A DNA stretch of 64,000 bases from Flavobacteriaceae bacterium MAR_2010_188 (lineage in GTDB: Bacteria; Bacteroidota; Bacteroidia; Flavobacteriales; Flavobacteriaceae), in contig LT629302.1 of NCBI GenBank assembly GCA_900104375.1, forward strand, positions 2,320,001-2,384,000, written 5' to 3'. Shown here piece after piece: positions 3,328 to 62,460 of this stretch. Positions within the stretch are counted from its first letter, which is position 1, and each line of letters begins with the position of its first letter. Made by a program: the position numbers and the translations under genes. Below the pieces are notes generated by a model. The model made no database searches. It was not told where the DNA came from and saw only the letters and a list, made by a program, of their open reading frames with translations.

Positions 3328-3478
3328 TATCTTATATACTTCTCGACGGCCGGTCGGTCTCCCGTCCGGTCCTGCTCTGGAACGTTCTCTAATCCGGCGG
3401 CCCCGAGGGGCCGCCTTACGCTGTCAATCCAATCTGTCAATCAACTTTACCGCCCCGGGGTCTCCCCTTTGGCGGGTG

Positions 3479-3509
3479 CAAATATAGCACCTTTTTCCGC
3501 TCCTACAAA
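3479..3509 (-). promoter_or_regulatory. rRNA promoter P1 (proximal)
   Basis: On the minus strand: -33 box TTTG (complement of 3506-3509), exactly 19 bases, then -7 box TATATTTG (complement of 3479-3486). This matches the Bacteroidota vegetative consensus TTTG-N19-TAnnTTTG. Transcription would start near 3472, giving a leader of about 145 bases before 16S. Confidence 0.85.
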
Positions 3510-3574
3510 ACATCCGCCGGTCTTTTTTTCCCGGCCCCCTGGTCCGCCATACGGCTTCCCCTTTTTAGCGGCTG

Positions 3575-3605
3575 CAAATATACGCCCCTTTTCCTTCCTT
3601 CCAAA
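3575..3605 (-). promoter_or_regulatory. rRNA promoter P2 (distal)
   Basis: This is a second perfect copy of the same arrangement, 96 bases upstream of P1: -33 TTTG (complement of 3602-3605), 19-base spacer, -7 TATATTTG (3575-3582). Sequence around both -7 boxes is similar (gcgg-tgcaaatata), so the pair looks like a duplication. An A/T-rich block lies directly upstream. Confidence 0.85.
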
Positions 3606-3775
3606 TCTTTTGATAAGATTTTTTGAAAAAAAATACAATCAACTAAAAGTCAGCAGTTTATAAATGTATTTTCTTAATATTCAGATTAGGATTAACTTTT
3701 ATAGAAGCTAACGCAATGGTCTTCAACTTCATGAAAAGGAAAATCTTTCATTCTTCAGCTTAATAAATGCCCTAT

Positions 3776-45894: not shown

Positions 45895-45898
45895 AATT

Positions 45899-45933
45899 AG
45901 TTTTTGGTTTTTAGTTTTCAGTTGTTAGTGGTT
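45899..45933. repeat. 7-base tandem array at the paaI-paaJ junction
   Basis: There are five units in phase: agttttt, ggttttt, agttttc, agttgtt, agtggtt. The array begins four bases before the paaJ start codon (minus strand) and fills much of the 77-base gap to paaI. Confidence 0.75.
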
Positions 45934-45971: not shown

Positions 45972-46388
45972 TTAATCGATCTCCCAATCCTTTGATGTTC
46001 GATAGACTACACCTTTAAAAAGTGCAACTAATTCATTCCCTCTTTTAACTTCCACAATATTAAAACCAAGTTTATTATTGACCTTTTCTATAACAGATTC
46101 GGCCTCTAAATAATCGCCTTCGTTTAAAGCTTCAATATGATTGATACTCGTTTCAATAGAAACCGCGTATTTACCATGAGTGTTGGCACAAAAACCAAAA
46201 GCAGTATCCGCTAATGAATAGCTGATTCCGCCATGGGCTTTGTTCATACTATTCAACATTTCTTTTCTAACGGTTAGACCCACTTTACATCTACCCAATT
46301 GACATTCTAAAATCTCAATTCCCAGCCATTGACTAAAGGGATCTTGCGATAGCATTTTTTCAGGGATGAGGCTTCCTTTTAAAGGCAT
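45972..46388 (-). CDS. paaI: PaaI hotdog-fold acyl-CoA thioesterase
   Basis: The protein has 138 residues, single hotdog domain: HGGISYSLADTAFGFCANT gives H52-G54 and catalytic D61. PaaI releases CoA from stalled phenylacetate-pathway CoA esters. The start ATG (46388) lies inside the last 7-base repeat unit (taatgcc on the coding strand) of the inserted four-helix-bundle cassette, so the cassette supplies or replaced the start region. Confidence 0.9.
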   Translation of the reverse strand: MPLKGSLIPEKMLSQDPFSQWLGIEILECQLGRCKVGLTVRKEMLNSMNKAHGGISYSLADTAFGFCANTHGKYAVSIETSINHIEALNEGDYLEAESVIEKVNNKLGFNIVEVKRGNELVALFKGVVYRTSKDWEID

Positions 46389-46811
46389 TAGGTATTTGGG
46401 ATTAGGGATTAGTTTTTTCTTTTCTCTCTAAAATTTTCTTTCTTAGAGAAGATAGCATTTTTGTTAATTCTGAAATCAGTTTTCTGTTTTCTTCATCTTC
46501 TTCAAAAGTAATATATAACCTTCTTTTGCCTTTTGTACTGCAACTTACACATTCATTTGCGCTATATATTGCGTAATTTAAATGCTTAACGAATTGTGCA
46601 TCTGAACCAGGATTGCCCTCTGCAATATTTAAAGCTATTGAATCCGCAGCTCTTCGGAACTGCGAGGACAAAGCATATAATTCATAAGCCGGAAACTTTT
46701 TAACAAAACCATCAACTACTTCACCAAAATCTATGGCTTTTTGATACACCTGTAAATCTTCAAATTTAAAATGATAGCTACTATCCATACTAATGCCTAA
46801 TGCCTAATGCC
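46384..46811. mobile_element. Four-helix-bundle cassette 1 with inverted 7-base repeat arrays
   Basis: The left array (46384-46413) reads inward ggcatta, ggtattt, gggatta, gggatta, gt. The right array (complement of 46811-46789) reads inward ggcatta, ggcatta, ggcatta, gt. The two are therefore terminal inverted arrays in the same phase. Between them is one gene (46402-46788). The left array contains the end of that gene and the paaI ATG; the right abuts the paaH stop codon. No target duplication is visible. Mobility is inferred, not shown. Confidence 0.65.
46402..46788 (-). CDS. Four-helix-bundle protein (23S rRNA intervening-sequence protein family)
   Basis: The protein has 128 residues. 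FKFEDLQVYQKAIDFGEVVDGF, FRRAADSIALNIAEG and FVKHLNYAIYSANE are the family marks (PF05635, TIGR02436). It is predicted to be wholly helical. Homologues occur inside 23S rRNA intervening sequences in Leptospira and Coxiella, and the Avd protein of diversity-generating retroelements is a structural relative. No function is established for free-standing copies. Its last codons (ACT AAT CCC TAA) are formed by the repeat array. It sits between paaH and paaI and shares no metabolic logic with them. Confidence 0.92.
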   Translation of the reverse strand: MDSSYHFKFEDLQVYQKAIDFGEVVDGFVKKFPAYELYALSSQFRRAADSIALNIAEGNPGSDAQFVKHLNYAIYSANECVSCSTKGKRRLYITFEEDEENRKLISELTKMLSSLRKKILERKEKTNP

Positions 46812-48026
46812 CTATTTGAAAAACCTACTACCACTATTAAGCATACTCCTCAATAGCGGACTACAGCGATATCGATCTTCTCGATAGGTTTCATATAATG
46901 AATCTATTGTATTAACACACCAATCAATTCCTTTTTCATTTGCCCAAGCCAATAGACCTTTTGGATAATTAACCCCTTTGGTCATGGCATTGTCGATATC
47001 TTCTGCCGAGGCGATATTCCAAAATAGAGCATCGGCTGCTTCATTAATCAACATTACAAGGATTCTATTGAAAATTTCTGTTTTTAGTTCTGGTCCGGCA
47101 TTCATTGCACTTCTTACCACGATTTTACCAGCTTCATCATAGTCATAATAACCTTTTCCGGATTTTCTTCCAAGGTAACCGGCTTCTGCAAATCTTTTTT
47201 GGGTAAAGGAGGGCCTATATCTGGGGTCGTAGTAGAAGGCTTCAAATACAGTTTCGGTAACCGTATAGTTAATGTCGTTCCCAATAAAATCCATCAATTC
47301 AAAAGGTCCCATTTTAAATCCGCCCAAATCCCGCATACTCATATCGATAGTCTCAATATCTGCAATCCCTTCCTCATAGATCCGTAAAGACTCACCATAA
47401 AAAGGACGCGCCACTCTATTGACGATAAATCCTGGTGTATCCTTGGCCACCGCCACGGTCTTGCCCCAACTTTTAATTGTTTCAATAACAGCATCTAAAA
47501 CTACTTCCGAAGTCTGTATGGCCGGAATCACTTCAACCAGCTTCATTAAAGGTGCTGGATTAAAAAAATGTATCCCTAAACACCGTGCTGGTCTATTTAG
47601 ACTTGCTGCAATTGAGGCAATTGAGAGACTAGATGTATTAGAAGCAATGATACACTTATCAGAAACTATATTTTCTAAATCTGAAAAGACTTTTTGCTTA
47701 ATATCAAGGTTTTCGATTATGGCTTCAATGATTAAATCCGAATTCTTTAAGGCAGTTAAATGTTCAGAATATTCAATATTTCCTTGAATCCGGTTCTTTT
47801 CATTTTCATCGATTCTTCCTTTCTCAATTAATCGTAACAGAACCTTTTCCAAATTTGCTTTAGACATTCCTAGAGCAGCATTATTGGTATCAAAAACCAG
47901 AACTTTACAGTCCGCAGTAGCCGCAACTTGCGCAATGCCACTGCCCATAGTTCCTGCTCCAATTACTCCAACAAATTGGATTGTTGATTGCTGATTTTTG
48001 ATCGTTGATTGTTGATTTTCTGTCAT
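46812..48026 (-). CDS. paaH: 3-hydroxyacyl-CoA dehydrogenase
   Basis: The protein has 404 residues. Rossmann NAD site GVIGAGTMGSGIAQVA begins near residue 19, later than usual. HFFNPAPLMKLVEVI holds the catalytic His, and DTPGFIVNRVARPFY follows. It oxidises 3-hydroxyadipyl-CoA to 3-oxoadipyl-CoA. The first 17 residues (MTENQQSTIKNQQSTIQ) are coded by a 42-base array of six 7-base units (47979-48020), so the N-terminus has been extended by repeat expansion; a TIQ-proximal internal start is not available as ATG. Confidence 0.93.
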   Translation of the reverse strand: MTENQQSTIKNQQSTIQFVGVIGAGTMGSGIAQVAATADCKVLVFDTNNAALGMSKANLEKVLLRLIEKGRIDENEKNRIQGNIEYSEHLTALKNSDLIIEAIIENLDIKQKVFSDLENIVSDKCIIASNTSSLSIASIAASLNRPARCLGIHFFNPAPLMKLVEVIPAIQTSEVVLDAVIETIKSWGKTVAVAKDTPGFIVNRVARPFYGESLRIYEEGIADIETIDMSMRDLGGFKMGPFELMDFIGNDINYTVTETVFEAFYYDPRYRPSFTQKRFAEAGYLGRKSGKGYYDYDEAGKIVVRSAMNAGPELKTEIFNRILVMLINEAADALFWNIASAEDIDNAMTKGVNYPKGLLAWANEKGIDWCVNTIDSLYETYREDRYRCSPLLRSMLNSGSRFFK

Positions 48027-48062: not shown

Positions 48063-48998
48063 CTAAAACGGCAAGTTGCTTAAATCGACATTCCCGCCAG
48101 AAATGATTATCCCGATTTTTTTATTTTGAAATCTTTGCTTTTCTTTCATCAAGGCTGCAAATGGAACGGCGCTTGAAGGTTCGATGATAATCTTCATCCT
48201 TTCCCAAATAAGTTTCATCGCTTTAATGATTTCTTCTTCTTCAACCGTTATAATTTCCTTTATTTCATCTTTTATAATCGGAAAATTTCTATCTCCGAGA
48301 TTGGTCCTCAGTCCATCCGCAATTGTTTCTGCAGTTTCATTGGTTTCAATTTCACCACTTTTAAGGGAGCGATAGGCATCATCTGCATTGCTAGGCTCTG
48401 TGCCAATGACTTCACATTTATCTGAAAAATACTTTACAGCTAATGCAGAACCTGCGATTAGGCCACCGCCGCCAACAGGGACGAATATATAATCGAGGTC
48501 TGCTTGTTCCATCAACAATTCCATAGCCGCAGTACCTTGACCGTAAATCACTTCGTCATCGTTTGAAGGATGTATAAATGTTGCTCCTTTTTCAGTTCTA
48601 ACCTTTTCTGCCATTGCTTCGCGCGCTGCAGCAGTAGATTCACTTTCAATAATTTCACCACCATAACCTGCAACCGCGTATTTCTTCACCAATGGCGCAT
48701 TTTTCGGCATAACGATATAGGCTTTTACTCCTATTTTTCTAGCCGCCAAGGATAAAGCTTGAGCAAAATTTCCAGAAGAATGGGTTACTACTCCTTTTTC
48801 TCTGTCCTCTTCAGAAAGTTGTAAAATAGCGTTTGTAGCACCCCGCATTTTATACGCGCCCATTTTTTGAAAGTTTTCACACTTAAAAAAAACCTCTGCA
48901 CCTACCATTTCATTTAGGAGCATCGATGATAAAACAGTGGTATTGTGGATGTATGGCTTTATCCGTTCATGTACTTCTAACATTACTTCTTTGGTCAT
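48063..48998 (-). CDS. PLP-dependent threonine dehydratase / serine racemase-like enzyme
   Basis: The protein has 311 residues, fold-type II PLP enzyme. PLP lysine in GAYKMRGATNA near 48-58, SSGNFAQALSLAA, and glycine loop VPVGGGGLIAGSA. It lacks the C-terminal ACT-type regulatory domain of biosynthetic IlvA, so it resembles the short catabolic dehydratases and serine racemases. It is tightly packed in the paa run: its ATG follows the paaG stop directly... on the coding strand paaG ends TAG and this gene starts ATG with no gap. A role in phenylacetate breakdown is not known. Confidence 0.85.
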   Translation of the reverse strand: MTKEVMLEVHERIKPYIHNTTVLSSMLLNEMVGAEVFFKCENFQKMGAYKMRGATNAILQLSEEDREKGVVTHSSGNFAQALSLAARKIGVKAYIVMPKNAPLVKKYAVAGYGGEIIESESTAAAREAMAEKVRTEKGATFIHPSNDDEVIYGQGTAAMELLMEQADLDYIFVPVGGGGLIAGSALAVKYFSDKCEVIGTEPSNADDAYRSLKSGEIETNETAETIADGLRTNLGDRNFPIIKDEIKEIITVEEEEIIKAMKLIWERMKIIIEPSSAVPFAALMKEKQRFQNKKIGIIISGGNVDLSNLPF

Positions 48999-51107: not shown

Positions 51108-51529
51108 CTTGAAGTTGAAGTTGAAGTTGAATTTATTTAGAGTTTTTCAACATCGTTACAACTATTCTAATTAATTGGTCGATTTCGTTCTTTAATTCAC
51201 TCAAATTAGTTTTAGGAAATAATCCTGCCTTACTTTGAATGTTAAGATTTCTTTCGCACTCTCTCAGCTCTTTCAAGCATATTCTTAATTTATTTATTTT
51301 ATCTTTTGAAGTACCAGCTCCTAATACTTCTCCATAATTTAAAGCGGAAGAACATGATGAACGGATAAGTTGCTTTGCTAGATAATCGCCGGAATAAGAC
51401 TCAGGTCTTTTATCGTATAACATTATAATATTTGCGGCAAAACTTTCTAACCTGTCGCTTAAATCGTATCTCGCTTCACTCATTCTTTATAAGTACTGTC
51501 AACTTCATCAAATTCAACTTCAACTTCAA
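51108..51529. mobile_element. Four-helix-bundle cassette 2 with inverted 6-base repeat arrays
   Basis: The left array (51108-51134) reads inward cttgaa, gttgaa, gttgaa, gttgaa, ttt. The right array on the complement (51529-51510) ends in the same inward 20 bases, giving a perfect inverted repeat of 51115-51134 with 51510-51529. One gene (51133-51483) lies inside. The element exactly fills the paaB-paaC junction: the right arm is seven bases from the paaB stop. It has the same build as cassette 1 with different repeat words and a 6-base period. No target duplication is seen. Confidence 0.65.
51133..51483 (-). CDS. Four-helix-bundle protein (second, diverged copy)
   Basis: The protein has 116 residues, helical: YDLSDRLESFAANIIMLYDK, LAKQLIRSSCSSALNYGEV, INKLRICLKELRECERNL and a final ELKNEIDQLIRIVVTMLKNSK. 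It is the family of IVS-type four-helix-bundle proteins (PF05635/TIGR02436) but of a clearly different subgroup from the copy at 46402-46788. It interrupts the paaABCDE epoxidase genes between paaB and paaC. The stop codon lies in the left repeat array. Confidence 0.88.
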   Translation of the reverse strand: MSEARYDLSDRLESFAANIIMLYDKRPESYSGDYLAKQLIRSSCSSALNYGEVLGAGTSKDKINKLRICLKELRECERNLNIQSKAGLFPKTNLSELKNEIDQLIRIVVTMLKNSK

Positions 51530-51536
51530 ATTCGTC

Positions 51537-51827: not shown

Positions 51828-51890
51828 CCCGCGAAGGCGGGTATTTTTTAAATTGATTCTATTTGTGAGATGCTGAAACAAGTTCAGCAT
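51828..51890. repeat. Palindromic repeats between paaA and paaB
   Basis: There are two hairpins: cccgc-gaag-gcggg (51828-51841), and atgctgaa-acaag-ttcagcat (51870-51890). On the coding strand the second reads through as VMLNLFQHLT in frame with paaB, a familiar signature of dispersed repeats of this type. They separate paaA from paaB by 89 bases. Confidence 0.7.
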
Positions 51891-51910
51891 GACATTACAG
51901 TTTAAGCCTT

Positions 51911-56992: not shown

Positions 56993-57065
56993 GTTGTTAG
57001 TTGTTAGGGAAACAAAACCAGGGAAGTCCAACAAGTGTTTGTTCTTTGTTCTTTGTTCTTTGTTC
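56993..57065. repeat. Two 7-base arrays between the aminotransferase and gldC genes
   Basis: gttgtta occurs twice at 56993-57006, and tttgttc occurs four times, perfectly, at 57038-57065. They occupy the 100-base gap between two convergent genes. The words are unrelated to each other but the period is the same. Confidence 0.85.
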
Positions 57066-57078
57066 TCTGAAACAAAAT

Positions 57079-61998: not shown

Positions 61999-62460
61999 AT
62001 TAGAGTATGAATTAGCAAGAAAACTTTCTTGAAGGATTGAACACGTAAAAATACTATAAAATGAAGCTCTGAAAAAATCTTAGAGTTATAGTATTGAAAA
62101 AGCCTTCAACCCAAATAATGGCTATTTAGCGAGTTATATAGAAATGTTCTTTAGTGCTTACTCGGGTGAAGTATATGCCACGAATTCCCGAATGTTTTTT
62201 GGGGCTAACCTGTCGTAGTATATGCAATGAGTTAACGAATGGTCTTTGGTGCTTAGCCGGGCGTATTTTATGCCACGGATTCACTAATTGTAAATTTGCT
62301 TACTAGGGCTTCCATTACGCAAAAGTCAATAGAACAAATTCGTGAATCCGTGGCACCTTTTACGCAAAAAAGCCTTTCAAAAATAATTCTTGAATTCGTG
62401 GCTTCCATTACTCAGAATTCCATCAAACACCTTTTCTTAGTCCCTTACATTTATATCATA
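61999..62460. repeat. Intergenic block with nested inverted and direct repeats
   Basis: There are 462 bases without a gene. A 45-base direct repeat (62143-62187 and 62238-62282, 36 of 45 identical) ends in gccacgaattc / gccacggattc. Inverted partners follow: 62272-62289 pairs with 62337-62354 (17 of 18), and 62177-62193 pairs with 62386-62402 (15 of 17). The arms nest, so the stretch can form a long double hairpin. It is probably a dispersed repeat of the cacgaattc type. Confidence 0.7.

Follow-up and report, generated by a model that had tools for sequence, protein, structure and literature searches.

The stretch analysed here, 64,000 nucleotides of contig LT629302.1 of Flavobacteriaceae bacterium MAR_2010_188 (positions 2,320,001 to 2,384,000; hereafter the window), carries a paa operon (phenylacetate degradation) on its minus strand. 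Between paaH and paaI of this operon, and not inside a 23S rRNA gene, lies a PF05635 gene which is bracketed by two short tandem arrays, termed here the 5′ and 3′ arms in the sense of the gene (Table 1). Read inward, both arms consist of one word family in equal phase with gt after each: ggcatta ggtattt gggatta gggatta gt from the paaI side (46384–46413), and three ggcatta followed by gt from the paaH side on the reverse strand (46811–46789), i.e., four units versus three. The GT of the 5′ arm is followed by the ATG of the bundle gene, which is spaced by 23 bp from paaH and by 13 bp from paaI. The paaI start codon (46386–46388) is inside the first unit of the 3′ arm and the stop codon of the bundle gene (46402–46404) is inside the third, with this arm overlapping the last codons of the gene. 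Direct reading, TRF and simulation bear out the preliminary description of the locus, in which inverted, in-phase arrays of four and three units ending in gt had been noted around the gene, one of them containing the paaI start codon and the last codons of the bundle gene.

Both arrays are recovered by TRF with a period of 7. The array scores of either arm were never equalled in 20,000 simulations using a first-order Markov model of the local sequence, and the inverted match of the arms has a p value of 5e-5 in Markov simulation; neither the arrays nor their inverted pairing can be put down to chance. The assignment of the gene to PF05635, initially proposed without a database search, is upheld by Pfam (E = 4.6e-25; 88.3 bits versus a curated cut-off of 33.8), and Rfam gives no match at the element. 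A second PF05635 gene, missing from the preliminary description, occupies the paaB–paaC junction of the same operon (Table 1). Its flanking arrays have a 6-bp period and are likewise inverted partners, with a score of 22 versus a null 95th percentile of 11.

Table 1. Features of the two PF05635 elements and their host genes (positions in the window; arms named in gene sense)
Feature	Position	Strand	Evidence
PF05635 (S23 / 23S rRNA intervening sequence protein) gene, 128 aa, four-helix bundle	46402..46788	-	Pfam, AlphaFold model
5′ arm: 3 perfect GGCATTA + GT, directly past the paaH stop codon	46789..46811	-	read sequence, TRF
3′ arm: 4 units, inverse of the 5′ arm	46384..46413	-	read sequence, TRF
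Host gene upstream: paaH, 3-hydroxyacyl-CoA dehydrogenase	46812..48026	-	Pfam 3HCDH_N + 3HCDH; neighbour conserved in relatives
Host gene downstream: paaI-type thioesterase	45972..46388	-	Pfam 4HBT
Second PF05635 gene, 116 aa, same operon, paaB–paaC junction	51133..51483	-	Pfam E 1.7e-12; operon map
5′ arm of second element, 6-bp period	51508..51533	-	TRF 4.3 copies
3′ arm of second element, 6-bp period, TTGAAG on + strand	51109..51131	-	TRF 3.8 copies

Further repeats and an additional gene are present in the window. A heptamer array inside the start of paaH (47979–48019) is translated as NQQSTIKNQQSTI, indicating that such arrays can end up within host proteins. A gene resembling PLP-dependent threonine/serine dehydratases or racemases (48063–48998) is located between paaH and an enoyl-CoA hydratase gene; it is also found in the paa operon of one other genome (G010), and is absent from most mapped relatives. 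At 62143–62288, a 48-bp unit is repeated in tandem (3.1 copies).

The AlphaFold model of the window protein (pLDDT 91.7) has four helices and matches the S23 structures 2gsc (Z 19.6, rmsd 1.2) and 2rld (Z 16.7, rmsd 1.5), each of which has five chains in its deposition. The next-best structural match is Avd (4dwl; Z 14.2, rmsd 1.5 Å, sequence identity ~12%); chains of the ribonucleoprotein of diversity-generating retroelements (DGRs) are at Z 14 to 14.6, and unrelated helical bundles at rmsd ~4. The relatedness to Avd which had been suggested for this family is thus found at the level of fold; by sequence, a profile search gave no Avd match in the PDB at E up to 1. The resemblance to Avd, taken together with the arms, suggests that the S23 protein may bind nucleic acid. 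The median dN/dS is 0.12 over 111 close pairs, which indicates that the protein is maintained by selection. It is the sole protein of the element and matches PF05635 alone in Pfam, with no transposase domain and no transposase catalytic residues. Two genomes rich in copies, G007 (10 copies) and G008 (15 copies), gave no RVT_1 match at E 1e-8, which leaves spread via a resident reverse transcriptase unsupported; the source genome has one RVT_1 match, more than 350 kb away. Annotations of PF05635 genes read ‘four helix bundle protein’ or S23, and we know of no function assigned to them.

Matching arms at PF05635 genes

The 3.8-Mb source genome contains 13 PF05635 genes, one of which is split into two matches (14 hits). 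Short tandem arrays are seen by eye beside nearly all copies, and a strict array score is passed on both sides by five of 12 copies, compared with none of 269 control ORFs. Twenty stretches spaced evenly over the genome were used as the control. The array words vary among copies (AAATTCC, TTTCAAAG, GAATGAT, TTGAAG, GGCATTA), and the host junctions, named from our reading of the translations, include sdhA–sdhB, atpA–atpG (a pseudogene), two parts of metH, fadJ–thiolase, thiolase–acyl-CoA dehydrogenase, ruvC–hemW, paaH–paaI and paaB–paaC. Every intact copy is in sense with both neighbours. At metH, the element lies between two parts of MetH (L003; G000:C1:2403446-2403760); two further loci (L073 and L083) apparently have the same arrangement, which may mark a split of metH.

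Analysis of further genomes extends the single case of the preliminary description to a general pattern, in which the word differs per locus, the two arms match each other and the gene is in sense orientation. Sampling of 60 genomes of the family and 61 of the phylum found PF05635 genes in 44 and 42, respectively. At 69 loci, left arms compared with the reverse complement of right arms score 16.2 for their own partner versus 9.9 for arms of other loci (p < 1e-4), and this inverted match exceeds any direct match. In 79 named loci fetched independently, the corresponding scores are 17.4 and 11.0; this set spans contigs labelled Planctomycetota, Chlorobiota, Clostridia, Treponema and Nomurabacteria, some of which are metagenome bins whose label is possibly wrong. 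Over 226 unique elements, the inverted score is 16.1 for own arms versus 9.5 for mispaired arms, with a far lower permutation maximum, although the loci in these arm statistics share phylogeny and are not independent. Words differ between loci and arms match within one element, and so do the periods: where clear on both sides, they are equal in 105 of 111 elements (7/7 in 89, 8/8 in nine, 6/6 in seven; mixed in six). The unit of a gene with two arrays and the rule of matching arms are well supported. As one arrangement recurs at most copies and at hundreds of loci, it looks like a widespread, apparently undescribed element of mobile type rather than a local oddity.

The fadJ–thiolase junction gives a view of arm evolution, because what is apparently one element occupies it in 21 genera, with words that vary by lineage. 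Own arms fit each other better than they fit the arms of orthologues (p = 2e-4 after centring), and the arms of this element evolve together. In one member (L177), a 14-base double unit is repeated ~10 times in the grown 5′ arm, and the 3′ arm has expanded to ~4 longer units; arm copy numbers can thus expand separately.

The closest known thing to the present elements is the intervening sequence (IVS) of 23S rRNA with an S23p frame. In Coxiella burnetii, the 23S IVS carries an S23p frame, described as expendable, and 28-bp terminal inverted repeats which are cut by RNase III; two to three GACAGAT heptamers, in strain-dependent number, precede the frame, and these heptamers and inverted repeats, at one rRNA site, are not linked as arms in that study (PMC4990558). 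The elements described here share with the 23S IVS the protein family, a frame in sense with the host transcript, bracketing terminal inverted repeats and heptamer tandem repeats beside the frame (whose number varies in Coxiella). Unlike the IVS, they lie between protein genes in many copies per genome, their arms are tandem arrays of a locus-specific word and, in contrast to the expendable Coxiella frame, their protein is under purifying selection.

These likenesses would fit an mRNA counterpart of the 23S IVS, in which a selected RNA stem in the operon transcript is cut by RNase III so as to free the S23 message and spare its neighbours. Consistent with such a stem, 60 of the 64 elements with neighbours called on both sides are in sense with both (four are antisense to both), RNA duplexes of own arms are stronger than those of mispaired arms (−32.7 versus −21.6 kcal/mol), and the Coxiella IVS itself combines an S23p frame with RNase III-cut repeats and strain-variable heptamers (PMC4990558). 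The predicted RNA fold of the window element (L010) has 28 arm–arm pairs. At two other loci (L001 and L009), however, the arms hardly pair in the predicted full-length fold. G·U-type mismatches, whose excess over A·C-type ones would be the expected trace of RNA pairing, number 170 versus 218 of A·C type, and the ratio is the same in the mispaired control; the power of this test is limited as it aligns the repeats in their best register. The absence of a G·U excess weakens the case for an RNA stem under selection and suggests that the arm match is kept at the DNA level, for which reason a DNA hairpin is ranked above an RNA stem. We consider the mRNA-stem explanation unlikely. The 5′ arm contains more G than C in 181 elements versus 39 with the opposite bias, and the 3′ arm shows the reverse (175 versus 39); control ORFs show no such bias.

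Gene-less arrays, empty sites and probable spread

Heptamer arrays also occur without a PF05635 gene: ~16 clusters were found in 464 kb of the source genome, and 7-bp arrays have been published for Bacteroidetes, Cyanobacteria and Beggiatoaceae (PMC4679880). Both observations would fit ordinary intergenic microsatellites with the gene as a chance passenger. However, the free direct arrays of the source genome have no inverted partner above null, whereas both S23 loci of the window have one; arm periods agree within elements, gene-less junctions in relatives carry no arrays (see below), and control ORFs are not framed on both sides. Inverted pairing largely refutes the microsatellite explanation, which we regard as very improbable. 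The idea that arrays as such are specific to PF05635 genes was likewise dropped, since free direct arrays exist and only the inverted pairing is specific; of the special feature seen in the preliminary description, the inverted matching pair stands and the heptamer array alone does not. Two solitary arrays are present in the window, at 45897–45929 (TTAGTTT-like) and 57038–57066 (TTTGTTC); the former, between paaI and the thiolase gene, is possibly what remains of a hairpin.

Some gene-less arrays are inverted. Heptamer hairpins of 70–95 bp without a gene are found at paa junctions in several genomes, e.g., at paaA–paaB in G151, at paaB–C and paaC–D in G315 and G014, and at paaC–D and paaZ–ECH2 in G325; one such hairpin is known in the source genome (L063:18557-18665). 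Among gene-less gaps, 18 of 178 are above a level which 1.8 would be expected to exceed, and their autocorrelation at period 7 is 0.38 versus ~0.30 at most other periods. A different kind of palindromic repeat, TGTCATGCTGAACTTGTTTCAGCATCT, occurs in the paaA–paaB gap of the window (51868–51894), with the same motif at a junction in another genome (L301:6058-6084), and a CCTTGAGCGCAGTCGAAGG type that resembles it is present at other junctions; these repeats look like a separate dispersed repeat family.

In four relatives, one of them of the same genus, paaH and paaI are adjacent without the element, with a gap of ~0–2 bp and no array; the empty sites that the preliminary description proposed to look for thus exist and, together with the unframed control ORFs, speak against both of the refutations set out in it. 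Ten other junctions of the source genome, each compared with two relatives (20 comparisons), have no array in any case; most gaps are <60 bp, and a few have different neighbours or longer unrelated gaps. The lack of arrays at gene-less junctions suggests that arrays arrive with the gene, and rules out that they were in place beforehand as targets for insertion. Within the same genus, the one other genome carries a single PF05635 gene versus 13 in the source genome. Across the paa operons of 21 genomes, PF05635 genes are found at seven junctions (paaA–B, paaB–C, paaC–D, ECH1–paaH, paaH–I, paaI–J and ECH2–paaY), with differences between genomes within one genus. Relatives of the window gene with 72–84% identity are located at paaH–paaI in several genera, one with 77% identity is at paaB–paaC with the same GGCATTAGGGATTTG word, a decayed one is at paaI–paaJ, and more distant ones are in other operons. 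When genes share at least 60% identity but neither neighbour is related, arm similarity is 26.9 versus 19.4 for distant genes (the pairs are not independent), suggesting that arms travel with the gene.

Other comparisons point to age and loss. Several placements are old and kept over many genera, as at fadJ–thiolase. Neither a recent arrival nor a target-site duplication was seen in the comparisons made; the closest empty allele compared is a loss derivative. In this closest pair at high flank identity (G100 versus G112/G128), the gene has been lost and a single array is left. A fresh insertion in G100 was rejected, as the empty allele retains a heptamer array resembling the 5′ arm and a more distant genus (G120) has the gene at that junction; the leftover array suggests that some free arrays may be scars. 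A second candidate for fresh transposition, two PF05635 genes at neighbouring junctions in G168 (L307:2594-2945 and 3365-3716; 95–97% identical), was set aside because near identity begins at about codon 15 and extends to the stop, with different arms and first codons, which makes gene conversion likelier.

These data also bear on a vertically inherited regulator, in which S23 would bind its own arms, as DNA or RNA, to tune neighbours such as paa, fad, sdh and met genes, and mobility would be only apparent, reflecting old duplication, gene conversion and loss. Retention of one junction in many genera, purifying selection on the protein, sense orientation in metabolic operons, loss with one array left and gene conversion between copies are all consistent with such a regulator. 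It is at odds with the patchy distribution within a genus (13 copies versus one), the differing paa junctions and the occurrence in unrelated operons across phyla, and we judge it improbable. The element itself is likely to move, as far as can be judged from comparing sequences. The mobile unit proposed in the preliminary description is supported in part: gene and arrays come and go together, and related genes at several junctions have similar arms, but neither a target duplication nor a recent insertion was seen.

Related systems and proposed explanation

Besides the 23S IVS, several known systems resemble the present elements in part. As in REPIN/RAYT, inverted repeats that can form hairpins lie outside genes, some accompanied by a gene and many on their own. 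The RAYT gene encodes a Y1 tyrosine transposase, and within a genome the REPs share a conserved sequence (PMC3116915), whereas here the gene encodes a small helical bundle of PF05635 with no Y1 transposase and the word is locus-specific. TAACTGA-type heptamer repeats (STRR) are tandem intergenic 7-bp units as well; those described from Bacteroidetes, Cyanobacteria and Beggiatoaceae are direct arrays of a single word except for one inverted case, and an S23 gene is not mentioned (PMC4679880). The present elements differ in having a PF05635 gene between two arrays of opposite orientation. Avd of DGRs has the same fold, but sequence identity is low and the copy-rich G007 and G008 have no RVT_1 match. 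MITEs are similar to the gene-less forms as short inverted-repeat units at many sites, but here no common terminal sequence and no target duplication are seen. Unlike in classical DNA transposons or IS elements, the inverted-repeat words differ between elements and a transposase domain is absent. No description of intergenic PF05635 genes with inverted arrays was found in the literature searched, which mostly excludes subscription journals.

The explanation that we prefer, with a probability of roughly one half, is an S23p hairpin element: a single unit whose arms are co-maintained through a DNA hairpin, which S23 binds, and which spreads or has spread. The unit consists of an inverted repeat that has a PF05635 gene as its loop and arrays of a 6–8 bp (mostly 7-bp) word as its arms, and it occupies junctions of co-transcribed host genes in sense orientation. 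The similar arms of related units at different junctions suggest that the unit spreads as a whole, or did so in the past. The word drifts by locus and lineage, the arms of one element remaining complementary and equal in period. When single-stranded, e.g., on the lagging strand, the arms could pair as a DNA hairpin, and slippage and strand-switch copying would pass changes from arm to arm. A pentameric S23 protein might bind the hairpin and promote its maintenance or transfer. Gene-less hairpins at like junctions would derive from units that have shed the gene, and solitary arrays may mark places where a unit was lost. Movement, copying through a DNA hairpin and its binding by S23 are steps that we infer; the unit itself, its matching arms with their shared period, the array-free empty sites, the sense bias, the occurrence of one subfamily at several junctions and the purifying selection on the protein are observed. 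The sense bias and the G-rich 5′ arms still ask for an explanation beyond a symmetric DNA hairpin alone, and suggest a role for transcription or for one DNA strand.

A broader proposal is offered tentatively, at less than even odds: the S23p hairpin elements might represent a new element class in several phyla. In this class, a pentameric four-helix-bundle protein would read an inverted array by its shape or period rather than by its sequence, and would move or maintain the array among co-transcribed genes, while the arm words co-evolve. The 23S IVS would then be a case that landed in rRNA, and gene-less hairpins would be dependants.

PF05635 genes are now tied to a defined DNA structure at hundreds of loci, mostly in Bacteroidota. 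This makes the role of S23p and of the rRNA IVS testable, with candidate binding sites for every copy, and provides a possible origin for some of the scattered heptamer arrays of these genomes. It also presents a case in which both ends of an element co-evolve, with their sequence free to vary. If these elements move, they would do so without any known transposase.
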